DNA of 35,729 nucleotides from Candidatus Anaerostipes excrementavium (GTDB taxonomy: Bacteria > Bacillota > Clostridia > Lachnospirales > Lachnospiraceae), in contig DXEM01000030.1 of NCBI GenBank assembly GCA_019114985.1, positions 1 through 35,729 of the forward strand, written 5' to 3'. The notes under the pieces are model-generated. The model had not been told where the DNA came from, did no database searches, and saw nothing but the letters and a program-made list of their open reading frames with translations. The first letter of the stretch is position 1; every line of letters starts with the position of its first letter. This document shows, one piece after another, positions 9,630 through 29,421 of this stretch. The position numbers and the translations under genes were made by a program.

Positions 9630-10910
9630 ATGAGTTTGCAAGTGGAAAACTTAGAGCATAATATGGTAAAGGTAACAATGGAAGCTGATGCGGCAAAATT
9701 AGACGCTGCAATTACAAAAGCCTATAATAAGAAGAAAAATCAGTTCAGCATTCCAGGGTTCCGTAAAGGAAAAGTACCTCAGAAACTGATCGAAAAAGAA
9801 TATGGAGTTGAGATTTTCTACGAAGATGCAGCTAATATTCTGATTCCGGAAGTTTATGAAGCAGAGATGAAAGACTGCGATTTGGACATCGTTTCCAGAC
9901 CGGAGATCGATGTTGTACAGCTGGAGAAAGGAAAACCTTTCATCTTTACAGCAGAACTTGCGGTAAAACCGGAAGTAACATTAGGAGAATATAAGGGAAT
10001 GGATGTCCCTAAGACAAGAATCACAGTAAAGAAAGAAGAAATTGAAGAAGAACTGAAGAAGACACAGGAGCAGAACGCTCGTGAGATTACAATCGAAGAT
10101 CGTCCGGTAAAAGACGGAGATATCTTAACAATTGATTATTCCGGATCTGTAGACGGAGAGAAATTCGAAGGCGGAACAGCCGAAGATCAGACATTGGTGA
10201 TCGGTTCCGGAGCTTTTATTCCTGGATTTGAAGAGCAGCTGATCGGCAAAGAATTAAATGAAGAGACAGCAATTGACGTGACATTCCCAGAAGAGTATCA
10301 TGCATCAGATCTTGCTGGAAAAGCGGCTGTTTTTGAAGTGAAGATCAAAGGAATCAAAGAGAAAGAACTTCCGGAATTAGATGATGAGTTTGCTTCCGAG
10401 GTTTCTGAATTTGAGACATTAGAAGAGTACAAAGCGGATATCAAAGAAAAGATCCGTGAGCGTAAAAAAGAAGAAGCGAATACAGCAAGAGAAAACAAGA
10501 TCGTTGATCTTGTGGTAGAGAATGCGCAGATGGATATTCCGGACGCTATGATCGAAGAACAGGTTCAGCAGATGACAGACGAATTTGCTCAGAGATTAAG
10601 TTATCAGGGATTGAGCTTTGAACAGTATCTCCAGTTCTCCGGAATGGATGCACAGAAATTTGCAGATGATATGAAACCACAGGCAGTTAAGAGAATCGAG
10701 ACTCGCCTGGTATTAGAAGCAATCGTAAAAGCAGAAAATATTGAAGCGAGCGAAGAAGACTTTAAGGAAGAATTAGGCAAGATGGCTGCGATGTACCAGA
10801 TGGAAGCAGATCAGCTTGAGAAGATGATCCAGGGCCCTCAGAAGGAACAGATGATGGATGACATCGCTGTGCAGAAAGCAGTTGACTTCCTCGTTGCAGA
10901 AGCAAAATAA
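9630..10910 (+). CDS. tig: Trigger factor (ribosome-associated chaperone and prolyl isomerase)
   Basis: A 426-residue protein, the normal length, that binds ribosomes at the exit tunnel and protects nascent chains. The N-terminal ribosome-binding domain has the GFRKGKVP signature (about residues 43-50). The FKBP-type PPIase domain spans roughly residues 150-240 (VKDGDILTIDYSGSVDGEKF, GSGAFIPGFEEQLIG). The acidic, helical C-terminal chaperone domain follows. An AGGAGG site precedes ATG 9630. It heads a tight tig-clpP-clpX operon (24 and 21 bp gaps), the usual order in Clostridia, coupling folding of new chains to ClpXP degradation. Confidence 0.98.
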   Translation: MSLQVENLEHNMVKVTMEADAAKLDAAITKAYNKKKNQFSIPGFRKGKVPQKLIEKEYGVEIFYEDAANILIPEVYEAEMKDCDLDIVSRPEIDVVQLEKGKPFIFTAELAVKPEVTLGEYKGMDVPKTRITVKKEEIEEELKKTQEQNAREITIEDRPVKDGDILTIDYSGSVDGEKFEGGTAEDQTLVIGSGAFIPGFEEQLIGKELNEETAIDVTFPEEYHASDLAGKAAVFEVKIKGIKEKELPELDDEFASEVSEFETLEEYKADIKEKIRERKKEEANTARENKIVDLVVENAQMDIPDAMIEEQVQQMTDEFAQRLSYQGLSFEQYLQFSGMDAQKFADDMKPQAVKRIETRLVLEAIVKAENIEASEEDFKEELGKMAAMYQMEADQLEKMIQGPQKEQMMDDIAVQKAVDFLVAEAK

Positions 10911-10934
10911 GACATAGTATTAGGAGGATGCGGT

Positions 10935-11519
10935 ATGAGTTTAGTACCTTATGTCATTGAACAGACAAGCAGAGGAGAGAGATCTTATGATATCTATTCC
11001 CGTCTGTTAAAGGAAAGAATTATCTTTTTAGGAGAAGAAGTTACGGATGTAACGGCAAGCCTGATTGTTTCACAGCTGCTGTTTTTGGAATCAGAAGATC
11101 CGGAGAAGGATATCAGTCTTTATATCAACAGTCCGGGAGGGTCTGTGACAGCAGGTATGGCAATCTACGATACGATGCAGTATGTGAAGTGTGACGTATC
11201 CACGATGTGCATGGGCATGGCTGCGAGTATGGGTGCTTTTCTCCTGGCAGGAGGAACAAAAGGCAAGCGTTTCGCGCTGCCGAATGCGGAAATTATGATT
11301 CATCAGCCATCCGGAGGAGCACAGGGACAGGCAACAGAGATCGAGATTGCCGCAGAGCATATTCTTAAGACAAAGAAACGTTTGAATACGATTTTAAGTG
11401 AGAATACCGGACAGCCGTATGAGACCATTGCAAAAGATACCGATCGTGACAACTGGCTTTCAGCTCAGGAAGCGGTTGCATACGGTTTGATCGATAAAGT
11501 CGTAGAAAAGAGACAATAA
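10935..11519 (+). CDS. clpP: ATP-dependent Clp protease proteolytic subunit
   Basis: A 194-residue serine peptidase that assembles as a 14-mer barrel and degrades substrates fed by ClpX or other Clp ATPases. The catalytic triad is at the canonical positions: Ser98 (GMAASMGAF), His123 (MIHQPSGG) and Asp172 (TDRDNW). The N-terminal axial loop region ([19 protein letters not shown]) and the handle helix are intact. AGGAGG precedes ATG 10935. It is co-transcribed with tig and clpX. Confidence 0.98.
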
Positions 11520-11540
11520 GAAAAGAATTGAGGTGGTCTG

Positions 11541-12839
11541 GTGCCAAGTTATAATGATGAAAAGAAAGTATTGAGATGTTCTTTCTGCAATAAGACCCAG
11601 GATCAGGTGCGTAAGCTGATTGCGGGGCCGAAAGCGAAGGGTGTGTATATCTGTGATGAATGTATTGATATCTGCGCCGAGATCATTGCGGAAGAATTTG
11701 AACAATATGCAGAGGATTCAGAGATTCATCTGAAGAAACCGAGAGAGATCAAAGAATTTTTGGATGAATATGTCATCGGACAGGATGAAGCAAAAAAAGT
11801 CCTTTCCGTTGCTGTGTATAATCACTATAAGAGGATTCTTATGGGCGGAGATGCAGATGTCGACCTGCAGAAGAGTAATATTCTGATGCTGGGACCGACC
11901 GGTTCCGGAAAGACACTGCTTGCTCAGACGCTTGCAAAGATGCTGAACGTGCCATTTGCTATTGCGGATGCTACGGCATTGACAGAAGCCGGATATGTTG
12001 GTGAAGATGTGGAGAATATTCTCCTTAAGATTATCCAGGCGGCGGATTACGACATGGAACGTGCCCAGTGCGGAATCATCTATATTGATGAGATTGATAA
12101 AATCACGAGAAAATCCGAGAATACGTCCATTACAAGAGATGTATCAGGAGAAGGTGTACAGCAGGCCTTGCTGAAGATTATTGAGGGTACTGTTGCCTCT
12201 GTACCGCCGCAGGGCGGAAGAAAACATCCGCATCAGGAGTTTATTCAGATTGATACAACGAATATCCTGTTTATCTGCGGAGGTGCATTTGATGGTCTGG
12301 AGAAGATCATCGAATCCAGAATCGGAAAGAAATCCATTGGATTCGGAGCGGATGTCATTGGACAGAGACAGGCAGATTTGGGAGCATTGCTGGCTCAGGC
12401 TCTGCCGGAAGATTTCGTAAAATTCGGACTGATTCCGGAATTTATCGGACGTGTGCCGGTGAACGTATCACTGAATCCGTTGGACAAAGAAGCTTTGGTT
12501 CGCATTTTGCAGGAGCCAAAGAGCGCTTTGGTGAAGCAATATAAGAAACTGTTCGAGATGGATGGTGTGTCTCTGGAATTTGAACAGGATGCATTGGAAG
12601 CCGTTGCTCAGAAAGCGTTGGAGCGTAAGACCGGGGCCAGAGGACTGCGGGCGATCGTAGAAAAGGTTATCATGGATCTTATGTACGAGATTCCGTCAGA
12701 ACCGGATGTATCCAGATGTATTATCACAAAAGAAGTGGTAGAAGAAGGTGCATACCCGCTGATCGAGCGTTCTGATCGTAAGATCAAAGCTTCCGGATCA
12801 AAGAAGAGAATAAAGAAGAGCAATCCGGAAATTGCATAA
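11541..12839 (+). CDS. clpX: ATP-dependent Clp protease ATP-binding subunit ClpX
   Basis: A 432-residue AAA+ unfoldase partner of ClpP. The N-terminal zinc-binding domain has four cysteines (Cys13, Cys16, Cys38, Cys41). Walker A is GPTGSGKT (118-125). The pore-1 loop GYVGED, Walker B IIYIDEID, the RKH loop ([10 protein letters not shown]) and the IGF-type ClpP-contact segment (SIGFGAD) are all present. The start is GTG 11541 behind GAGGTGG; the translation from there begins [13 protein letters not shown], leaving the zinc domain intact. It is the last gene before a hairpin terminator, so most transcription from the tig promoter should end here. Confidence 0.98.
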
Positions 12840-12866
12840 CAAGATCAATCAGGAAAACCTGAATAT

Positions 12867-12916
12867 AAAAACTGCTTTCGTACAAGGAACCCTTGTGTCA
12901 AAAGCAGTTTTTCTTT
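12867..12916 (+). terminator. Terminator between clpX and lon
   Basis: AAAAACTGCTTT (12867-12878) pairs with AAAGCAGTTTTT (12901-12912), and an inner stem ACAAGG/CCTTGT (12882-12887 with 12891-12896) caps it. The T tract (12908-12916) ends 5 bp before the lon ribosome binding site. No good promoter is visible between hairpin and lon, so lon may depend on read-through. Confidence 0.75.
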
Positions 12917-12932
12917 TAAAAAGGAGAATCAA

Positions 12933-15251
12933 ATGAAAAAGATATTGCCAATGGTTGCCTTAAGAGGAAAATATATTTTCCCTAATACGGTGATTCATTT
13001 TGATGTATCCAGAAGTAAATCCATACGTGCCATTGAGGAGGCCATGCAGCAGGATCAGTTAATCTTTTTAAACAACCAGCTGGATCCTACCCTGGAAGAT
13101 CCGGGAATTGTGGATCTCTATAACATCGGGACGCTGGCGAAGATCAAACAGATGGTAAAACTGCCTCAGAATATTGTGCGAATCTTTGCGGAAGGATTAT
13201 TTCGCGCAGAGATGACCGGAGTCTGTGATGAAGAACCGGTATTTCGAGTGGAAATTGCCTATAATCATGTGGAACAAGAGCCGTTTGCTCCATTTGAACG
13301 GGAAGCAATGCTGAGATCCATCCGAGAAAGCTTTGAGCGGTATACCAAAGAGTGGAGCCAGATGGATCAGAATCTGGTAAGCTATATTTTGATGCAGCAG
13401 GACTTGGAACTTTTGGTGGATCAGCTGGCAACTCACATTCCGTTTTCTCTGGAAGATAAGCAAAGAATCCTGGAGGAGATGGATTTAAAGACCCGTTGTG
13501 AAGATATGCTGGCGCTTTTGGAAGAAGAACTGGAAGTAATGTCGATCCGTGGAGAAATCCAGAAAAAAGTCAGAGCAAATGTGGATAAAAATCAAAAAGA
13601 ATATATGCTTCGGGAGGAAATGAAAGTCATCCGGGAAGAATTAGGAGAGACGAATATCGAAGACGAAGCTCAGGAGTTTTTGGATCAGCTTGGGAAGATC
13701 AAGGCTTCCAAAGAAGTGAAGGAAAAGATTAAAAAAGAAATCGGACGATTTCAGGCAATCGGCATGAGTACGCCGGAAAGTTCGGTCCTGAGAACCTATA
13801 TCGAAACGATGCTGGATGTACCGTGGGAGCGAAGATCCAGAGATTCGAAAGATTTGGAGCGAGCCGAAGAGATTCTGAACGAAGACCATTATGGTCTGGA
13901 AAAGGTAAAAGAAAGGATTTTGGAGTATCTGGCAGCCCGTGCTATGAGCGGAAAAAAAGATGCAGCGATCTTGTGCCTGTTTGGACCTCCGGGAACAGGA
14001 AAAACCTCCATTGCCAGATCCATTGCCAAAGCCACAGATAAAGAATACATTCGGCTTTCTCTTGGCGGTGTCCGGGATGAATCAGAGATCCGCGGACATC
14101 GGAAAACCTATGTGGGAGCCATGCCGGGCAGGATCGTGGAAGCGCTTCGCAGAGTCAAAGTAAGGAATCCTCTGATGCTGTTAGATGAGATCGATAAAGC
14201 AGGAAAAGATCAAAGAGGAGATACGGCTTCTGCGCTGTTGGAAGTGCTGGATCCTGAGCAAAATGAACATTTCCAGGATCACTATCTGGAAGTTCCGTTA
14301 AATTTAAGTGATGTTTTGTTCATTGCGACTGCCAATGATCTTTCTCTGATTCCAAGACCGCTTCTTGACCGAATGGAGATCATCGAGGTATCCAGCTATT
14401 CGGAGAATGAGAAATACCATATCGCCGAGCGTTATTTGGTACGGAAACAAAGAGAGGCAAATGGATTAAATGAGCAGCAGATCCAATGGAAAGAAGATGC
14501 CCTTCGGTTCCTGATCTCATCTTATACCAGAGAGGCAGGTGTGCGTGATCTGGAACGTAAGATCGGTCAGGTATCCAGAAAGGTGACGAAAGATATTTAT
14601 CAGAAAAAACATCGGAAAGTGACCATTACCAAAAAGAAAGTAAGAGATTATCTCGGTGTTCCGCCTTATGAATGGGAGAAAGAATCTTTAAAAGATCAGG
14701 TTGGTATCGTTCATGGTCTGGCGTGGACTGCAGTAGGCGGCGCCACCTTAAAGATCGAGGTAAATGTCATGCCCGGGAAAGGAAGAATCCAGGTGACCGG
14801 TTCTCTGGGCGATGTTATGAAGGAATCCTCTCAGGCTGCGATCAGTTATATCCGCAGCCAAGGCCGTAAGTACAAAATCAGAGCCGATTATTTTGAGAAA
14901 CATGATATCCATATTCATATACCGGAAGGGGCTGTGCCGAAAGATGGCCCATCTGCGGGAATCACAATGACGACAGCCGTACTTTCCGCGATTACAGGAA
15001 AGAAGGTAAGGGGAGACCTTGCAATGACAGGAGAAGTAACGATCCGAGGCGAGGTCCTGCCGATCGGCGGACTTAAAGAGAAGCTGTTGGCTGCCAAACG
15101 CCTGGGAATTCGAACCGTCCTGGTTCCAAAATCCAATGAAAAAGATGTCAAAGAATTTCACGAGGAAATCACGCAGGGATTGTCGATTATCTATGTGCGG
15201 ACGATGAATCAGGTCATCAAAGAAGCTATGGCAAAAGAAGCGGAGGAATGA
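12933..15251 (+). CDS. lon: ATP-dependent protease Lon (LonA)
   Basis: A 772-residue cytosolic ATP-dependent serine protease that degrades misfolded and regulatory proteins. It has the full LonA layout: N-terminal LAN substrate domain (about 1-200, starting PMVALRGKYIFPNTVIHFDV), coiled-coil linker, AAA+ module with Walker A GPPGTGKT (351-358) and Walker B LMLLDEIDK, and the C-terminal protease domain with the Ser674-Lys717 dyad (KDGPSAGITM; IGGLKEKLLAAKR). The dyad spacing of 43 residues is the same as in E. coli Lon. AAGGAG lies just before ATG 12933. Its stop region overlaps the ribosome binding site of folC, so folC is translationally linked to it. Confidence 0.98.
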   Translation: MKKILPMVALRGKYIFPNTVIHFDVSRSKSIRAIEEAMQQDQLIFLNNQLDPTLEDPGIVDLYNIGTLAKIKQMVKLPQNIVRIFAEGLFRAEMTGVCDEEPVFRVEIAYNHVEQEPFAPFEREAMLRSIRESFERYTKEWSQMDQNLVSYILMQQDLELLVDQLATHIPFSLEDKQRILEEMDLKTRCEDMLALLEEELEVMSIRGEIQKKVRANVDKNQKEYMLREEMKVIREELGETNIEDEAQEFLDQLGKIKASKEVKEKIKKEIGRFQAIGMSTPESSVLRTYIETMLDVPWERRSRDSKDLERAEEILNEDHYGLEKVKERILEYLAARAMSGKKDAAILCLFGPPGTGKTSIARSIAKATDKEYIRLSLGGVRDESEIRGHRKTYVGAMPGRIVEALRRVKVRNPLMLLDEIDKAGKDQRGDTASALLEVLDPEQNEHFQDHYLEVPLNLSDVLFIATANDLSLIPRPLLDRMEIIEVSSYSENEKYHIAERYLVRKQREANGLNEQQIQWKEDALRFLISSYTREAGVRDLERKIGQVSRKVTKDIYQKKHRKVTITKKKVRDYLGVPPYEWEKESLKDQVGIVHGLAWTAVGGATLKIEVNVMPGKGRIQVTGSLGDVMKESSQAAISYIRSQGRKYKIRADYFEKHDIHIHIPEGAVPKDGPSAGITMTTAVLSAITGKKVRGDLAMTGEVTIRGEVLPIGGLKEKLLAAKRLGIRTVLVPKSNEKDVKEFHEEITQGLSIIYVRTMNQVIKEAMAKEAEE

Positions 15252-22281: not shown

Positions 22282-23367
22282 TTATGAGGTCAATATTTTT
22301 AATAAACGATCGTTTTCTTCGGGCCTTTGCATGCAGAATCGGATATATTCACCTTCCAGGCCATTGAAACTGCTGCAGTCCCGAATCATCATTCCTTGTT
22401 TGATACATCGTTCAAACATTTCCAAAGAAGTAGTTCCATTCAGCAAACGAACTAAAATAAAGTTGCCGTAAGCCGGGTAAGTCTTGATTCCGGGAACGGC
22501 TGAAAGAACTTTCAGACATCGATCCCGTTCACCGGAGATTAATTCTCTGGTACGCTTTATATAATCTTGATCCGCAAACATGGATCCGGCACAAACGGCG
22601 GCCAAAGTATGGATCGTCCAGGGATTCTTGATGGCTTCCAATTTCTCCCGAAGGACAGGGTCAGAACAGATCCCATATCCCAAACGCAGTCCGGGAGCTG
22701 CAAAGAATTTGGAAGTTCCGCGAAGAATCATCAGATTTTTAAATTCTGATATTAGGGAAGCTGCGGAAATCTGCTGAACATCCGGAGCAAACTCTACATA
22801 AGTCTCATCAATCATAACGAAAATCTGCTGCCTTTGGCAGTGTTCTAAAATCTCACGAATCTCATCTCGGTTCAATGCGCTGGAAGTAGGATTGTTTGGA
22901 TTGCAAAAAGCAAACAAATCCACATCCGGAGTAAGCCGAGATTTTAAATCGTCCATATCCAATTGAAAATTCTTTGATTCTTTCAGAAAATATTCTTGAT
23001 AAGAACCGCCTGCCAAAGTAATTTCCCTTGTGTATTCAGAGTAAGTCGGAGATAGGATCAAAGCGTTTTTCGGCCGAAGAAGCTGAAAGATCAGACCAAT
23101 CAGCTCGGTAGCGCCATTGCCCGGAATGATATCTTCGGCAGGAACCTTTGCATACTGTCCGATGGCGGTTCGAAGCTCTTTATAATCTCTGTCCGGATAT
23201 TCGCAGACAGCATCTAAATGAGAGGCCATACTTTGCTTTAAAAGAGGTGAAATGCCCAGAGGATTCACATTCCCTGCAAAGGGGATAATATCCTCTTTTT
23301 TGATGCCGTAGATTTGTTCTGCTTTCTCTAAATCACTTCCGTGAAACGCTTGTTTTTTTTCTTCCAT
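22282..23367 (-). CDS. CobD/HisC-type PLP-dependent enzyme (threonine-phosphate decarboxylase-like)
   Basis: A 361-residue fold type I PLP enzyme of the HisC/CobD group. Visible are FAGNVNPLG near the N-terminus, the GATELIGLIF cofactor region, the CNPNNPTS loop, MIDETYVEF and the PLP lysine in GTSKFFAAPGLRLGYG. The N-terminal FHGSDLEKAEQIYG and the C-terminal MIRDCSSFNGLEGEYIRF resemble CobD, which makes (R)-1-amino-2-propanol phosphate for cobalamin, more than histidinol-phosphate aminotransferase. Neither cobalamin nor histidine genes are nearby, so the reaction is uncertain. It is a single-gene unit with its own promoter and shared terminator. Confidence 0.8.
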   Translation of the reverse strand: MEEKKQAFHGSDLEKAEQIYGIKKEDIIPFAGNVNPLGISPLLKQSMASHLDAVCEYPDRDYKELRTAIGQYAKVPAEDIIPGNGATELIGLIFQLLRPKNALILSPTYSEYTREITLAGGSYQEYFLKESKNFQLDMDDLKSRLTPDVDLFAFCNPNNPTSSALNRDEIREILEHCQRQQIFVMIDETYVEFAPDVQQISAASLISEFKNLMILRGTSKFFAAPGLRLGYGICSDPVLREKLEAIKNPWTIHTLAAVCAGSMFADQDYIKRTRELISGERDRCLKVLSAVPGIKTYPAYGNFILVRLLNGTTSLEMFERCIKQGMMIRDCSSFNGLEGEYIRFCMQRPEENDRLLKILTS

Positions 23368-23482: not shown

Positions 23483-26400
23483 ATGTCAGAACAGTTACAA
23501 AGTTTTGCAGAGATGGTAAAAGAGGATAAGGACAGAGCCAAAGCCCTCTTTTTTTCAGAAACTTTCAAGAAAGAATATTTAGAAAATGATACAAAACGAC
23601 AGGATGTCTATCATCAGCTTCTCATGGGAAGGAATCGGGAACAGATCTTAGAAGAGTTCCTGATTACGGCAGAACTCAAAGAACCGGTACGTTTGACTGC
23701 GGCGAAGAGAAAATATCAGATTTTCCAATGGAACCTGGATGATCCGTTAAAGATAACGGTGAAGAGAGAAGGCTGGGGATATATGGAAGGCAGAATCAGA
23801 GTACAGGGGAATTTCCTTTCCGCAGCGGAAGAAGGATTCACCGGCGAAGATTTCGAAGATGGCTTTTTTCATCTTCCGGTCTACCTGGAGCGAATTCCGG
23901 AAGATGGAAGCATCTGTCATGTCATTTTTGAGACTGTACACGATGTGCTGGACATTGAGGTCACATTTGAGGAGAATCTGGAAGAGAAGATCAAGCTGGA
24001 ACGGTCAAAACAAAAGAAGATGTTCCAGGCCTATATCGATTTCTGTACAGGAAGAATTGAACAGGATGAGTACGAAAAACGAGAAAGTCAGATTTTAAAT
24101 CAGATGCCGGCAGGATTAGAGCACAGCAAGATTTACCAGCTGGCAAGACTCCATATAGGAATTCTTGCAGGAGAAAAAGAGATCGAAAGCCGTTTAAAAG
24201 ACGCAGGACATATGGTTGCGGAAGAGGATCCGGCTTCTGTAAGAGGGTACTATGCTTATTTGAACGCACTGCTTTACCGGACCAAGGAAGCAGTCGAGCA
24301 GGCGGCAGGTATGATCCGCCGGCTGAGGGAGATAGAACCAAGCAATGGCTTCTTGTTATGGCTGCTGTTAAATCTTGATTCCTCCATTGCCTATGATGGG
24401 AAACTGCAGCTTGCGAAGATGAAAGAAGTATATCAGCAGGGAGACCGAACGAAGCTCCTTCTGTTTGAAGCATGCTGTTTGTTCGGAGAATCTCCGGAAC
24501 TGCTCCACAGACTGGAAGCTTTTGAAATGGACGTTCTGGAATTTGCGGCAAAAGAGGAATTATTAAATGATAAGTTAATCCAAAGGATTTGTTTCCTTAT
24601 ATCACGGGAAAAAGTTTTTTCCGAGGGATTATTGTGGCTGCTGGTCTGCATCTATGAAGAATATCCGATGACAAATGTACTGCAGGGGATCTGTGCACTT
24701 TTGATCCAGGGAAATTATATGGAACCGGACTGCCATCCTTATTATGAGAAAGCCCTGGAGGAAGGAATCCAGCTGATTGGCCTCCAGGAAGCGTTCCTGC
24801 GGACGATTCCGGAAGATCAGTATCCTATGCTCCCGAAAGAAGTCCTGACTTATTTTTCTTACAGCAATACCCTAAGCCGGCATGAGCAGAGCTGTCTCTA
24901 TGCGAATGTGATCAAGAACCGAAGAAGATACCAAGGGGTGTTTGCCAACTATGAAGAAATCATCTTCCCGTTCTTAGCGGAAGAATTGAAAAAAGGTCAT
25001 TTAAACCAACATCTTTCTTTGTTGTATCACTATTATTTCGAAGAACTTTTGGAGAATGAAGAGACGGCGGATGATTTGGGAAATATTTTATTTTACAAAG
25101 AACTTTGCTGCTCACAGGAGTTTTTGAAAAAAATTGCTGTTTTTCAGCGGCAGAAACGTCAGCCGGATCTAAAATTCTTAAAAGGAACAACGGTATATGT
25201 TGAAATTATGGATCCTAAGGCAATGATGGTATTTTTTGATCGGGAAGAAAACCGATACATCGGTTCCGTTTCCTATCAGCTCAGACCGCTTTGGTCAAAA
25301 GAGCAAATCCGGGCTTACTGTCAAAAATGCAGCGGATTGAATGAACACTATTTGTTATATAAGAGTCTGGAATTTCTGCAAAAAGAGCAATTGACGAAAG
25401 AAGATTTTCCGGAAGTTACAGCAGTCGCTGAGTGTGGGTCACTGGAAGAGGGCTGCCGTCAGGAGATTTTTGAAAAGATATTAAATTATTACTGGAAGAA
25501 CGGAAAAGATAATGAGTTAAAAGAGGCTCTAATGTATGTGGACTGGAGGAAGCTTCCGCCGAAGAACCGGATCCATATGATTGAATATTTTATTGCCGGA
25601 GGACTTCATGACGAGGCATTAAAAGGGATTCAGCAGTATGGATACCATTTTCTGAGACCTGATTTGTTAAAAGAAGTCACAGTTCATGCTTTAACAACTT
25701 TAAGCAATCGAAAATTGGATATGTTAATAGGAATGTGCAGCCGGGCATTTGAGCATGGACAATATAATATTGAGATTGTCGGATACCTGCAGAAGTATTT
25801 CAAAGGAAGCAGAGAACAGATGATCAAAGTCTGGGAGGCAGGATATGAAGTAGGGATGTATCATAACTCTTTTACCGAGGAAGTATTAAGAAGCTGTATC
25901 CGAGATGGCATCGGGGAAGAGGAGTTTCCTGTGTTTTCCAGATATCTGATGGAAGATGGGATGAACAGAGAATTAGCGGATGCAGTCCTTGTAGAATATG
26001 TGGATTACGCCTGCCGCAGCAAGAAAGAACTGCCGGAGCAGTTCTATGAACAAATCGGCCGTAAGATCGATGCAGGAAAAAAGGATTCTGTTTACCAGGG
26101 ATTATATTTGGAGTATTATAAAGGAAAGAAATTAGGCAGCAGGCAAAAAGATCGTCTGGAGAAGATCAAAGAGATGCAGATTCAGACAGGGGACATTTTC
26201 CCGGCCTTGTTTGAATTCACGGATGTGCTGGAACTGCCCAAATATCTCTTTGCGCAGACGTTTATCGAATATCAGGCAGCCGAGGGACTGCAGATGATGT
26301 TTCATTATGCCTTTTCCAGAGGAAAGCAATGGCGGGAACTGCCGATGAAAGAATTGTTCCCCGGCTATTATGTAACGACTGCAGTGATCTTTGCCGATGA

Positions 26401-26617
26401 GCTGAATGATTATTTTATTACGGTTCCGGGGGAAGAGAAGCGCAGAAGGAAAGATATCCGTTTCATTCGGCATATTGATCAGAGCAAAGGCAGCCGTTTT
26501 TATGAACTGAATGAGATTACAAGAGAAAAATACAGGGATGCGGCATTTGCATCCATGGAACGATATCAGTTGAAGAGAAGTATGGTGGATTTTATAAAAC
26601 CAATGATAGAGGATTAA
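23483..26617 (+). CDS. Large uncharacterised helical-repeat protein (DUF5717-like)
   Basis: A soluble protein of about 1044 residues with no catalytic motif I recognise. A short helical start is followed by a beta-rich module at about residues 65-170 (KITVKREGWGYMEGRIRVQG, FFHLPVYLERIPEDG, VLDIEVTFEEN). The rest is predominantly alpha-helical repeats of TPR/HEAT-like character, ending in a mixed domain with basic KRRRKD. I recall similar proteins annotated DUF5717 in Lachnospiraceae; this was not checked. ATG 23483 is chosen, with AAGGAG 13 bp upstream; an in-frame TTG at 23459 would add 8 residues. It is 3 bp before the next gene and leads the cassette, probably as a scaffold. Confidence 0.7.
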   Translation: MSEQLQSFAEMVKEDKDRAKALFFSETFKKEYLENDTKRQDVYHQLLMGRNREQILEEFLITAELKEPVRLTAAKRKYQIFQWNLDDPLKITVKREGWGYMEGRIRVQGNFLSAAEEGFTGEDFEDGFFHLPVYLERIPEDGSICHVIFETVHDVLDIEVTFEENLEEKIKLERSKQKKMFQAYIDFCTGRIEQDEYEKRESQILNQMPAGLEHSKIYQLARLHIGILAGEKEIESRLKDAGHMVAEEDPASVRGYYAYLNALLYRTKEAVEQAAGMIRRLREIEPSNGFLLWLLLNLDSSIAYDGKLQLAKMKEVYQQGDRTKLLLFEACCLFGESPELLHRLEAFEMDVLEFAAKEELLNDKLIQRICFLISREKVFSEGLLWLLVCIYEEYPMTNVLQGICALLIQGNYMEPDCHPYYEKALEEGIQLIGLQEAFLRTIPEDQYPMLPKEVLTYFSYSNTLSRHEQSCLYANVIKNRRRYQGVFANYEEIIFPFLAEELKKGHLNQHLSLLYHYYFEELLENEETADDLGNILFYKELCCSQEFLKKIAVFQRQKRQPDLKFLKGTTVYVEIMDPKAMMVFFDREENRYIGSVSYQLRPLWSKEQIRAYCQKCSGLNEHYLLYKSLEFLQKEQLTKEDFPEVTAVAECGSLEEGCRQEIFEKILNYYWKNGKDNELKEALMYVDWRKLPPKNRIHMIEYFIAGGLHDEALKGIQQYGYHFLRPDLLKEVTVHALTTLSNRKLDMLIGMCSRAFEHGQYNIEIVGYLQKYFKGSREQMIKVWEAGYEVGMYHNSFTEEVLRSCIRDGIGEEEFPVFSRYLMEDGMNRELADAVLVEYVDYACRSKKELPEQFYEQIGRKIDAGKKDSVYQGLYLEYYKGKKLGSRQKDRLEKIKEMQIQTGDIFPALFEFTDVLELPKYLFAQTFIEYQAAEGLQMMFHYAFSRGKQWRELPMKELFPGYYVTTAVIFADELNDYFITVPGEEKRRRKDIRFIRHIDQSKGSRFYELNEITREKYRDAAFASMERYQLKRSMVDFIKPMIED

Positions 26618-26620
26618 AAG

Positions 26621-27655
26621 ATGCAGACAGGATTACATTTTGAGCATGGACAAGTTTATACCTATGTCATAGAGGGAAGCAGGGCATCGGAAAAAGAACC
26701 GTTGACGTATGAAAGCTCCTGGACGGATTATATGTCTGAGATTTTAAAAGATGGAGCAGACGGAGTGTTTGGGATCGTAATAGATCAGCTCAATCCGATT
26801 GCGGTCAAAGAGGCACAAGAGCTGTCTGCACAGCTTGGAGGGGAGGGAACAGTACGCCTCTATACAAAAGAAAAAGCGATTGTCGGCATGGTACGATTCC
26901 AGCGGAATGATCTAAGGAGAGGCAATACGGCGGTCTTTGACTATAGTGAGGAACAGTTCGCCTATTATGACGTAAGAGAAAAATCCGGAAAGATCATAGT
27001 AGAGAAACAAGATTATACGCAGATGATGGAGCAGGCCAATTCCAAGAACGATAAAGATCGATTGTTTTCCGAGATCATCCGGAAAGTGTTTGCACGAGGC
27101 GTCACATCTACCGTTTACCTGTGCGGCATCGGATTTGAAGGAGAGTGGTTTCAGCAGGCAACGAGGATTTTATGCCGGGGAAGAAGAGTTTTTATGGGAA
27201 ATCATCTGTTCGCCTGCGGCGCAGCTTATCTGGCAGGGCAGGAGAGTGGATTTGAAGCGGAGAATGCTTGCCTGATTACAGAGAACATGACGGTATGTCA
27301 GATTGGACTTACATTGTATCATCACGGAAGAGATGTTTTTTATCCGCTGCTTCCGGAAGGAAGAGCCTGGTTTGAGGCAAAGGGAGAGATGGAGATTTTT
27401 GTTTCCGGCATTACAAAATTGATCTTTGAACTTCGGACAAAAGAAGGGAGAAAGACGGCTTCCGTATGCATGCCGCTGTCAGGAATCAAGAAGAACAAAG
27501 ATTTCGTATATAAGCTGAAAATACAGGGAGAATATATTTCCTCTGAACGGTGCAGGATTAAGATAACCGATGAAGGATTCGGAAGTCTGCGTCCGTCCAG
27601 CCATCAGGTATGGCAGCAGGTGATCCGTCTGGAAAGGAGTGAATCCCATGAGTAA
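26621..27655 (+). CDS. Degenerate Hsp70/actin-fold protein (DUF5716-like)
   Basis: A 344-residue protein whose layout follows an Hsp70 ATPase domain with decayed motifs. Residues 50-90 (FGIVIDQLNPIAVKEAQEL, then VRLYTKEKAIVGM) parallel the Hsp70 stretch that begins VITVPAYF-D-QR-A and ends NEPTAAAL-Y. Residues 104-118 (AVFDYSEEQFAYYDV) match VFDLGGGTFDVS with GGGT replaced. Residues 164-206 (VYLCGIGFEGEWFQQATRIL, then ACGAAYLAG) match the adenosine motif and AxGAA helix. The N-terminal DLGTTNS hairpin is missing. A beta-rich C-terminus (about 240-335) sits where the Hsp70 substrate domain would be. It probably does not hydrolyse ATP. It is 3 bp after the large gene and overlaps the next by 8 bp. 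Confidence 0.7.
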   Translation: MQTGLHFEHGQVYTYVIEGSRASEKEPLTYESSWTDYMSEILKDGADGVFGIVIDQLNPIAVKEAQELSAQLGGEGTVRLYTKEKAIVGMVRFQRNDLRRGNTAVFDYSEEQFAYYDVREKSGKIIVEKQDYTQMMEQANSKNDKDRLFSEIIRKVFARGVTSTVYLCGIGFEGEWFQQATRILCRGRRVFMGNHLFACGAAYLAGQESGFEAENACLITENMTVCQIGLTLYHHGRDVFYPLLPEGRAWFEAKGEMEIFVSGITKLIFELRTKEGRKTASVCMPLSGIKKNKDFVYKLKIQGEYISSERCRIKITDEGFGSLRPSSHQVWQQVIRLERSESHE

Positions 27656-28448
27656 AATCGTTTTATGTGAGACCCAGGAAGCCCCATATCCGTATCGAAT
27701 CGAAAAGATCCGTCAATCTTTTGCAAGTTATGAAGAATTGTGCTATTTGCTGGAACATTATATGATATTTTTCCTGATGAAAGGAATCGATTTCCGAATG
27801 AAATCTTATATGAAGGAAACTTTGGGAATTGCTTTGGAGAATGAAGATACCGTACAGCAGATGAAAGATATCATCAATTTTCGAAATTATTTTACAGCGG
27901 ATGAAAAACAGCAGTTTCAGCAAAAACTTCGAACGACATATCTTTATTCCGCGGCAAAAAAGCAAAAGCTTCTTGCAGATTTGTATTTGGAGCATCATCA
28001 GTATTTGAGCGCAATGAAATGCTATCAGACCCTGGGAAGATCAGCAGGACAGTTCTCCGGAAGAGAACAGCTTGAGATCTTATATCACCTGGGCTTGTGC
28101 CAGAGCAGAGCCTTTTGTTTTGAGGAAGCGAAAGAATCGTTTCGAAAAGCATTGTCCATAAAGCAGAAGAAAGAAGTACAGGAAGCCTATTTTATGGTAT
28201 CCTATCTTCAGGGAGATTACAGCTCATTCGTAGAAGACGGGAAGAAAATCTCATTTTCGGAAGAGCGCTGCAAGACCATTTATGATAATATAAAGCAAAG
28301 AGAGGAAGAGATCAAAGAACAAGAAGAATTTGTCAAATTGCGAAAAATCGATTACCATAGAAAGAAAGCGGATGACGTTATGACAAGACGGCTGACAAAA
28401 GCAGTATTGGAGAGATGGAAAGATGAATACAAGAGAGAGATTGTTTGA
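27648..28448 (+). CDS. Uncharacterised TPR-like protein
   Basis: A 266-residue, almost wholly helical protein. Residues about 100-200 look like two or three tetratricopeptide repeats (KLLADLYLEHHQYLSAMKCY, ILYHLGLCQSRAFCFEEAKE with SFRKALSI). A charged coiled-coil segment follows (about 205-240, KQREEEIKEQEEFVKLRK). No enzyme motif is seen. ATG 27648 has AAGGAG 8 bp upstream, and an in-frame GTG at 27639 overlaps that site. It overlaps the Hsp70-like gene by 8 bp and the next gene by 26 bp, so the four cassette proteins are probably made together and may form one complex. Confidence 0.7.
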   Translation: MSKIVLCETQEAPYPYRIEKIRQSFASYEELCYLLEHYMIFFLMKGIDFRMKSYMKETLGIALENEDTVQQMKDIINFRNYFTADEKQQFQQKLRTTYLYSAAKKQKLLADLYLEHHQYLSAMKCYQTLGRSAGQFSGREQLEILYHLGLCQSRAFCFEEAKESFRKALSIKQKKEVQEAYFMVSYLQGDYSSFVEDGKKISFSEERCKTIYDNIKQREEEIKEQEEFVKLRKIDYHRKKADDVMTRRLTKAVLERWKDEYKREIV

Positions 28449-29421
28449 AGATCTGGGAAATGCCAAAGAAATGCTTTTGGAGGAACGATTTACAGTTCTC
28501 TATGAGGAGGAAATCGCGGAAATCCGGGCAAAGAAAGAGGATCTCAAGATAATAGAGAATCTGGATGAGGAGACGGCAAAAGAGGTAGAGGAAAAAGCAA
28601 GGCTTTATCATCGTGCCTTTGCAAGGAATTTCTATGACGAATCAAAAGGGCGTATCAGCGATGAGGAGTTTTTTCCTTTGTGGGAAAGAGAAGAAGAGGT
28701 GATGACGGGACTGCAGACGATGCAGTCTTTAGAGGGAGAGAAAAAGCAGCTGGAAAAAGAGCTTGATGTTGTCTCAAAAGAAGAAAGCATGCTGAAAAAT
28801 AGAACGGAAGATGCTGTTTCCGTGCGGGAAAACAAACAGGTCATTTTTCGGTCTTTTGTCTGCATGGCAGTTACAGCGCTTGTATTGGCAGTCATTGCCG
28901 TTTTCTATTTTGAACTGCCTGTCCGCAGCTTTTTGTGGCAGATCGCCGCTGTTGTTATCGTCGTGTTTTTGTGCCTGACGATTCTGTATCAGAATAAGAA
29001 AAAAGCCATGGAGGCGGAGAAATTCTATCGAATGATGAGCGGCCATAAGCATAGTTCCAGAGCACGCCTGGAATCAGATTTTCAAGACATTGCGAATGAT
29101 TTGAAATTCTATTATGAAAAATTCGAGGTACTGCTTTCTTATATTTCCGAAGAGCAGTGGAATTTGTTTGAATTTTGTATGCAGATTTCATCCAGACTGC
29201 GATTATGTGAAGATATGAAAGAATCCGGGGACGAATTGGTCGATGTGTTAAATAAATGTGGATTAAAGCAGGCAGAGAGCTGGCTGTATTATCCAAAGGC
29301 ATTGTTCGATGTTCCTAAGAGGATCACATGCCGCGAGCGGCTGGATGACAGGGAGAATCTTTGTGCACAAAGACTGATGCGGCACGAAAGAGAAATTGAA
29401 AAGAATAAAATTGACATATAG
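28423..29421 (+). CDS. Uncharacterised coiled-coil protein with two transmembrane helices
   Basis: A 332-residue protein. Residues about 1-125 are a charged helical or coiled-coil region ([39 protein letters not shown]). Two adjacent hydrophobic helices follow at about 144-163 and 170-189, joined by a short ELPVRS turn, so both flanking parts should face the same side, probably the cytoplasm. The C-terminal half (about 190-332) is helical and charged. No known domain is recognised. It overlaps the TPR-like gene by 26 bp and ends 10 bp before valS. It is the likely membrane anchor of the cassette. Confidence 0.65.

Follow-up and report, generated by a model that had tools for sequence, protein, structure and literature searches.

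A degenerate Hsp70 in a conserved gene cassette of Lachnospiraceae: candidate remnant of an order-specific Hsp70/GrpE chaperone locus

What does a relative of Hsp70 that is predicted to be without a working ATP motor do in a tight four-gene cassette, and from where does such a cassette descend? The question is raised by a stretch of 35,729 nucleotides from Candidatus Anaerostipes excrementavium (assembly GCA_019114985.1, contig DXEM01000030.1, positions 1 to 35,729), called the window in the following, in which four genes on the forward strand encode a DUF5717 protein, a DUF5716 protein, a TPR protein and a membrane-anchored coiled-coil protein (protein 4, MemCC). Judging from sequence comparison and structure models, the cassette is probably the reduced descendant of a multi-Hsp70/GrpE chaperone machine specific to the order, and would now act as an ATP-independent platform. 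The genes and the hydrophobic segments of protein 4 are located as follows:

23483..26617, + strand: DUF5717 protein, 1044 aa, start ATG; predicted alpha-solenoid scaffold with beta-rich domains
26621..27655, + strand: DUF5716 protein, 344 aa, predicted pseudo-Hsp70; Pfam PF18980 at 7.7e-65
27648..28448, + strand: TPR protein, 266 aa, start ATG; conserved N-terminal EELCYY-type segment
28423..29421, + strand: membrane-anchored coiled-coil protein (protein 4), 332 aa; lineage-dependent fourth gene
28855..28911, + strand: first hydrophobic segment in protein 4, spanning residues 145-163; mean Kyte-Doolittle score 2.69 (19 residues)
28930..28986, + strand: second hydrophobic segment in protein 4, spanning residues 170-188; mean Kyte-Doolittle score 2.74 (19 residues)

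The four window genes were confirmed as genuine and undamaged, and they evolve under purifying selection. None of the four open reading frames (ORFs) contains an internal stop, and their spacings are +3 (DUF5717/DUF5716), -8 (DUF5716/TPR) and -26 (TPR/protein 4) when the TPR gene is started at ATG 27648; an alternative GTG start is open 9 bases upstream of this ATG. All four genes occur in the same order in 11/11 genomes of the window's genus, and the -26 overlap is identical in all 11, though protein identity drops to about 30%. The ratio of nonsynonymous to synonymous substitution (dN/dS) was 0.04-0.16 in the six closest pairs for each cassette gene, as far as it could be computed, with several pairs near saturation (dS >1); ValS gave 0.01-0.034 for comparison. 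The tight spacing of the four ORFs had been described in an initial annotation made from the sequence alone, as had the names DUF5717 and DUF5716, and both were borne out, the names by Pfam (PF18984, PF18983 and PF18980). The window DUF5717 protein matched PF18984 at 1.2e-168 (563 bits) and PF18983 at 1.2e-36 (127 bits), compared with a gathering score of 25. NCBIfam contained no above-cut-off match for any of the four proteins. Compared with most relatives, proteins 1, 2 and 4 of the window have shortened N-termini.

The DUF5716 protein is an Hsp70 homologue with an actin-like nucleotide-binding domain (NBD) and the beta part of the substrate-binding domain (SBDbeta), predicted from sequence and models to be without a working ATP motor. 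A profile of 34 DUF5716 proteins compared with PDB chains found DnaK (2v7y) at an E-value of 1.2e-6, through the N-terminal NBD. The AlphaFold model of a relative in which DUF5716 and the TPR protein are fused (locus L051; G, L and f numbers are our handles for genomes, loci and families) was built from a 69-row alignment and reached a pLDDT of 94.3 and a pTM of 0.86. Among the 50 PDB entries listed for this model by Foldseek, 48 were Hsp70, Hsp110 or complexes with one of them, with E-values down to 8.8e-17, and the remaining two were ciliary entries whose titles name no chain. We then counted residues and subdomains in an alignment against the DnaK found in L104 as reference. The equivalents of the ATPase residues K70, E171 and T199 (E. 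coli numbering) are each present in 0/40 DUF5716 proteins; the related Hsp70 types a, c and d described below have them in 37/37, only two of these rows being true type d, as row d_L087_572 is type c by tree and score. Subdomain IIB is nearly gone, none of the 40 sequences aligning at more than 15 of its 81 reference positions. The lid is absent (median 7/106 positions), the five DUF5716-TPR fusions showing 45-67 aligned lid positions with an input that ran to residue 470 and so includes part of the linker or TPR. SBDbeta is kept (median 108/116 positions), and we assigned it since both the structure model and the order-level relatives show this part. These findings support the degenerate Hsp70 fold suggested at the outset.

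The window copy has lost still more: it is without about 85 N-terminal residues present in most relatives, the region of the phosphate-1 loop, where 41/100 positions could be aligned. Sequencing error or decay was rejected as the cause, since all 11 genus genomes carry the short form (frames of 345-365 aa, 36-100% identity to the window) and dN/dS is low.

The origin of this protein is suggested by the corresponding locus in other families of the order. The DUF5717 profile matched 75/146 order genomes, 15 of them listed under the window's family, Lachnospiraceae, and 60 from other families; 51 genomes without a match were not listed. We examined 20 loci from these 60 genomes. Three are cut by contig ends (G451, G463, G511), and the 17 uncut loci belong to seven families (f125, f128, f132, f136, f139, f142, f144). 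All 17 contain, in this order, DUF5717, Hsp70a, a GrpE-domain protein, Hsp70b, Hsp70c and an Hsp70 fused to a VWA domain (type d). Downstream of type d, a TPR gene follows in 16/17 and a gene related to the membrane coiled coil in six (124-228 bits), with valS in five of those six; the locus without a TPR match is G571, which also has a weakly scoring type b (56 bits). Small genes or longer gaps break up some of the loci, and in 16/20 DUF5717 comes as two pieces, one of about 400 aa and one of about 900 aa. Divergently upstream, 10/20 loci carry an aminotransferase gene homologous to that of the window (40-51% identity).

Hsp70a is about 559 aa long, Hsp70b about 460-535 aa and Hsp70c about 546 aa. 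Pfam run on the proteins of L090, L088 and L206 found HSP70 in types a, b, c and d, DUF5716_C in type b and more weakly in type c, GrpE in the long protein, and VWA in type d. In L090 the matches were the DUF5717 pieces, HSP70 at 1.1e-76 (a), GrpE at 5.4e-11, HSP70 at 3.3e-22 together with DUF5716_C at 6.2e-23 (b), and HSP70 at 3.8e-62 (c). All five catalytic residues checked are kept in types a and c (34/34), and the equivalents of K70 and T199 are found in 0/15 type b proteins. Type a and type c of L090 are far below the equivalog cut-offs of NCBIfam for DnaK (264.9 bits; NF001413, cut-off 648) and HscA (219.6 bits; TIGR01991, cut-off 708.55), respectively. The GrpE-domain protein has 560-645 aa (279 in L086) with the GrpE domain at the C-terminus, scoring 42.9 bits in L090 and 46.1 bits in the 279-aa protein of L086 (Pfam cut-off 25.8). 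A J-domain (PF00226) is present in 20/20 order genomes and at 0/20 of the loci, three of which are cut by contig ends; the nearest match lies about 8 kb from the locus, beside dnaK, in G451.

Some further features of these loci were observed. The long GrpE-domain proteins (L090:14411-16342) have an uncharacterised N-terminal part of about 500 residues. Type d follows Hsp70c in L088 (12517-14673) and L206 (3343-5396), with the VWA domain at its C-terminus; in G450 both this gene (L206:3343-5396) and the TPR gene (L206:2208-3255) are read in two overlapping ORFs each, reflecting frameshifts, real splits or assembly errors. With PADLOC, type c (L090:17979-19616) gave a match to the candidate model PDC-M61B at 4.5e-10 that probably reflects its Hsp70 domain.

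The link between the two kinds of locus is drawn from gene order. The window reads aminotransferase, DUF5717, DUF5716, TPR, membrane protein and valS. The G450 locus (L086) reads DUF5717 in two pieces, a, GrpE, b, c, d, TPR, membrane protein and valS, so that the window cassette equals the G450 order minus a-GrpE and c-d. That types c and Hsp70-VWA stand here in one locus with the TPR gene, the membrane gene and valS strengthens the argument for descent. Counterparts of all four window genes are found in the same order, with others between them, in five loci of other families. In a phylogenetic tree containing 14 of 40 DUF5716 rows, sampled after dropping four (window, L046, L054, L071), the 14 DUF5716 rows formed one clade (100/93), whose nearest neighbor was the type b protein of G450 (100/99), followed by the type b proteins of L101 and L102 (100/96). 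Type b rows fall on both sides in this tree, so type b looks like the grade that gave rise to DUF5716. Since the root is a midpoint root and the branches are long, the tree represents support and not proof.

Searches of 40 family genomes apiece for type a, type c and the long GrpE found none of them; no search of complete family genomes was made for type d. The best family scores were 204 bits for a, 194 for c and 30 for the long GrpE, compared with at least 929, 943 and 234 bits for members, and the matching family proteins have the sizes of other Hsp70s and the housekeeping GrpE. From the gene order and the presence of the full set in seven other families we infer loss in the Lachnospiraceae rather than gain elsewhere. 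A wider proposal, on which we are evenly divided, states that this order of gut Clostridia holds a fourth bacterial Hsp70 system that has had no name so far. It would consist of a membrane-associated DUF5717 scaffold, four Hsp70-type subunits (two lidless ones and a VWA-fused one with intact catalytic residues, and a dead one), its own GrpE and a TPR adaptor. Lachnospiraceae would have shed every ATPase and the exchange factor by deletions inside one conserved locus, leaving a nucleotide-independent assembly platform that is kept in nearly all genera.

We determined how constant the cassette is within the family. Co-conservation of DUF5717 and DUF5716 had been set beforehand as a test of whether the genes belong together. 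Among 150 genus representatives of Lachnospiraceae, DUF5717_N was detected in 147 and DUF5716_C in 145; both were present in 144, neither in two (G327, G389) and only one in four (G318, G396, G426, G444). Three of these four genomes are 67-69% complete, and the DUF5717 match in G396 begins at contig base 40. Co-conservation of the two genes is thereby supported. A broad distribution across the phylum was rejected: Pfam DUF5717_N occurred in 4/299 phylum genomes, all four from the window's family, and the DUF5717 profile matched 19/291 class genomes, ten family members and nine weak partial matches (best 3.7e-9). The DUF5717-DUF5716-TPR triad was complete in 41/41 chosen neighbourhoods including the window, the 40 others (L036-L075) having been picked with DUF5717 and DUF5716 on one contig, so that adjacency is partly by choice. 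DUF5716 and the TPR protein form a single ORF in 5/41. A fairer test of adjacency is given by 80 loci chosen by DUF5716 alone, although these lie near the query clade. When named genomes were scanned with six sequences of DUF5716, 485/567 candidate stretches were confirmed, of which the best 80 were examined. They carry mostly Lachnospiraceae names (Dorea, Faecalicatena, Mediterraneibacter, [Ruminococcus] torques ATCC 27756), a few being labelled only Eubacteriales, Clostridiales or bacterium. The triad lies in series on one strand in 79/80 of them, and the last locus stops at the DUF5716 gene.

The fourth gene behaves differently. The membrane coiled coil reached a strong profile score in 65/150 family genomes (67 were tallied, two with weak matches only), and it is present in 15/41 chosen neighbourhoods and in 0/80 of the named loci, a Dorea/Mediterraneibacter-type set. 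Tethering by protein 4 is thus not universal, and the constant core comprises three genes. The intergenic gaps vary across the family, the tight overlaps being a trait of the window's genus, and the 3' flanks vary as well, with a valS-type gene in 13/41 loci. Of the four-gene membrane-tethered unit that the initial annotation had envisaged, the triad therefore stands as constant and the general presence of the membrane gene does not; its interpretation as a whole is partly supported.

For the giant first protein we obtained an AlphaFold model of a relative of 1191 aa (L037; pLDDT 86.6, pTM 0.55). It is predicted to run from a beta-sandwich through short helices, a second beta-sandwich, an alpha-solenoid, a beta domain and a second alpha-solenoid to a final beta-sandwich, i.e. 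four beta-rich domains around two alpha-solenoids. The predicted helical repeats were found in this way, and the protein is not helical throughout, as had been assumed. The window copy is without the first beta domain: alignment shows that it misses the N-terminal domain of about 125 aa seen in most relatives, and its PF18984 match spans profile positions 126-869 only. Foldseek matches of the model in the PDB were generic solenoids (Ski3, Ctr9, Naa15) and ciliary proteins.

The TPR assignment of the third protein is supported, though borderline in the window copy itself. The window protein is just under the cut-off for Pfam TPR_2 (8.9e-6, 25.9 bits, cut-off 27), the order-level relative in L088 scores 74.6 bits with Pfam TPR, and the TPR part of the L051 model shows helical hairpins; the fusions place it next to DUF5716. 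Protein 4 has the two proposed hydrophobic segments, located between coiled-coil-like stretches, and no Pfam family over the cut-off. Its profile match at the window extends past the ORF at both ends, across stops. A weak PADLOC match to LeoBC (21.8 bits, 2.1e-5) probably reflects its coiled-coil and transmembrane composition. In seven of the 20 order loci another protein with hydrophobic segments precedes DUF5717, to which the profile of protein 4 does not match, and this suggests a membrane link there too. In L093 (1821-2990) and six more loci this protein has 310-440 aa and one to several hydrophobic segments and lies directly upstream of DUF5717N; the one in L093 gave no Pfam match over the cut-off.

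How might such an assembly act? DUF5717, with its solenoid and beta domains, could serve as a scaffold that carries the pseudo-Hsp70. The latter would need no ATP cycle and would grip a fixed client or partner by its SBDbeta, the TPR protein may be its permanent adaptor, and the coiled-coil protein, where present, would anchor the assembly at the inner membrane face. The overall role would be that of an ATP-independent holder or assembly platform and not of a folding motor. Joint action of the triad would fit genes that are kept together, are fused in several loci and are under purifying selection.

Several observations weigh against this reading. In the tree, 12/15 type b rows lie across the branch from DUF5716, together with a, c and DnaK, and the branches are long. 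The SBDbeta sequence match between DUF5716 and DnaK amounts to 3-4 bits and is not significant alone, and the TM-scores of the L051 model in Foldseek are low (0.29-0.42 by query length). The pTM of the DUF5717 model is just 0.55, and its fold matches are of a generic kind. The membrane gene is missing from over half of the family genomes. Partial distance correlations given ValS were 0.53, 0.54 and 0.29 (20 genomes, no significance test); these modest values give weak support. Finally, the phosphate-1 Asp is present in 33/40 DUF5716 proteins and one adenosine-loop Gly in 39/40, so weak nucleotide binding by DUF5716 may persist.

This last point leads to the alternative that DUF5716 has remained active as a nucleotide-dependent chaperone, if perhaps a slow one, which borrows the housekeeping DnaJ or GrpE and has the TPR protein and DUF5717 as co-chaperones. 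Retention of SBDbeta and of the phosphate-1 Asp would fit such an activity; however, none of the 40 proteins has an equivalent of K70, E171 or T199, subdomain IIB is nearly missing in all of them and the window's genus has also lost most of the phosphate-1 region, which makes this explanation improbable. It is somewhat less unlikely, though still doubtful, that DUF5716 is an actin-fold scaffold of the envelope or division machinery, comparable to PilM or FtsA and not chaperone-derived in function, with the coiled-coil proteins as its membrane partners. The NBDs of Hsp70s share the actin fold, and membrane proteins recur at the locus, namely MemCC in the family genomes given above and in six order loci, and the upstream hydrophobic protein in the seven loci. 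Such a role is hard to reconcile with fold matches that named Hsp70 or Hsp110 in 48 of 50 listed entries, and with a sister machine that encodes GrpE and Hsp70s with intact catalytic residues.

The cassette genes might also be co-transcribed neighbours that act separately, as the lineage-dependence of the membrane gene and housekeeping flanks such as valS would allow. We regard this as the least probable of the three alternatives and very unlikely, considering the co-occurrence in 144/150 genomes, the five fusions and the fact that the same components stayed together when four genes between them vanished. A defence island was considered as well and rejected, because the flanks are housekeeping genes, valS and an aminotransferase, and PADLOC models gave no match for window proteins 1-3 and the weak LeoBC match for protein 4. 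The aminotransferase gene (22282-23367) is divergent and upstream of DUF5717, and valS, encoding valyl-tRNA synthetase (PF00133, PF10458), starts 10 bp past the protein 4 gene at ATG 29432. An ordinary protein quality control cluster, with trigger factor, clpP, clpX and lon one after another, occupies positions 9630-15251 further upstream in the window. A promoter and terminator scan gave 17 promoter-like sites, 11.2 being expected, and was not used as evidence.

The proposed descent from an Hsp70/GrpE machine can be compared with known systems. Ssz1 of the eukaryotic ribosome-associated complex (Ssz1/Zuo1) is an Hsp70 relative thought to be a structural partner and not a folding motor. DUF5716 resembles it as a presumed structural partner, whereas its locus has no J-domain partner, its subdomain IIB is nearly absent and its partners would be a TPR protein and a giant solenoid. 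The part of a review that we consulted (PMC8215388) counts three types of prokaryotic Hsp70, namely DnaK, HscA and HscC, and measured against that part types a, b and c appear to be additional. The order-level cluster shares with these three the homology of NBD and SBDbeta and a GrpE-domain partner. It differs in that a, b, c and DUF5716 are lidless, in its dedicated DUF5717 scaffold, in having one subunit that is a predicted pseudo-Hsp70, in the lack of a J-domain match within the 20 order loci and in the scores of a and c far under the NCBIfam cut-offs for DnaK and HscA; unlike these systems, the locus of the window's family retains no Hsp70 with intact catalytic residues. Proteins 1 and 2 of the window score far above the cut-offs of the Pfam families DUF5717 (PF18984, PF18983) and DUF5716 (PF18980), respectively, whose descriptions give neither a function nor a link to Hsp70. 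The split order-level forms of DUF5717 and the Hsp70/GrpE partners were identified in this analysis.

No publication on DUF5716 or DUF5717 was found, and none on such a cluster among the papers listed, in a literature that excludes most subscription papers and preprints; the sole paper with either name (PMC8115291) looks unrelated by its title, and in a survey of DnaK duplications (PMC11019930) words beginning with Lachnospir or Clostridi are absent from the main text, as far as it was available.

Lachnospiraceae are dominant gut bacteria. Nearly all sampled genera of this family have the gene set, usually in a single copy, although our search found no paper about it. Since full and reduced forms occupy the same locus, live and dead members can be compared within a single lineage, which makes the loss of a chaperone's ATP motor directly testable. 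If the proposed descent is true, the cassette would be a naturally occurring example of a chaperone motor that has become a static scaffold.

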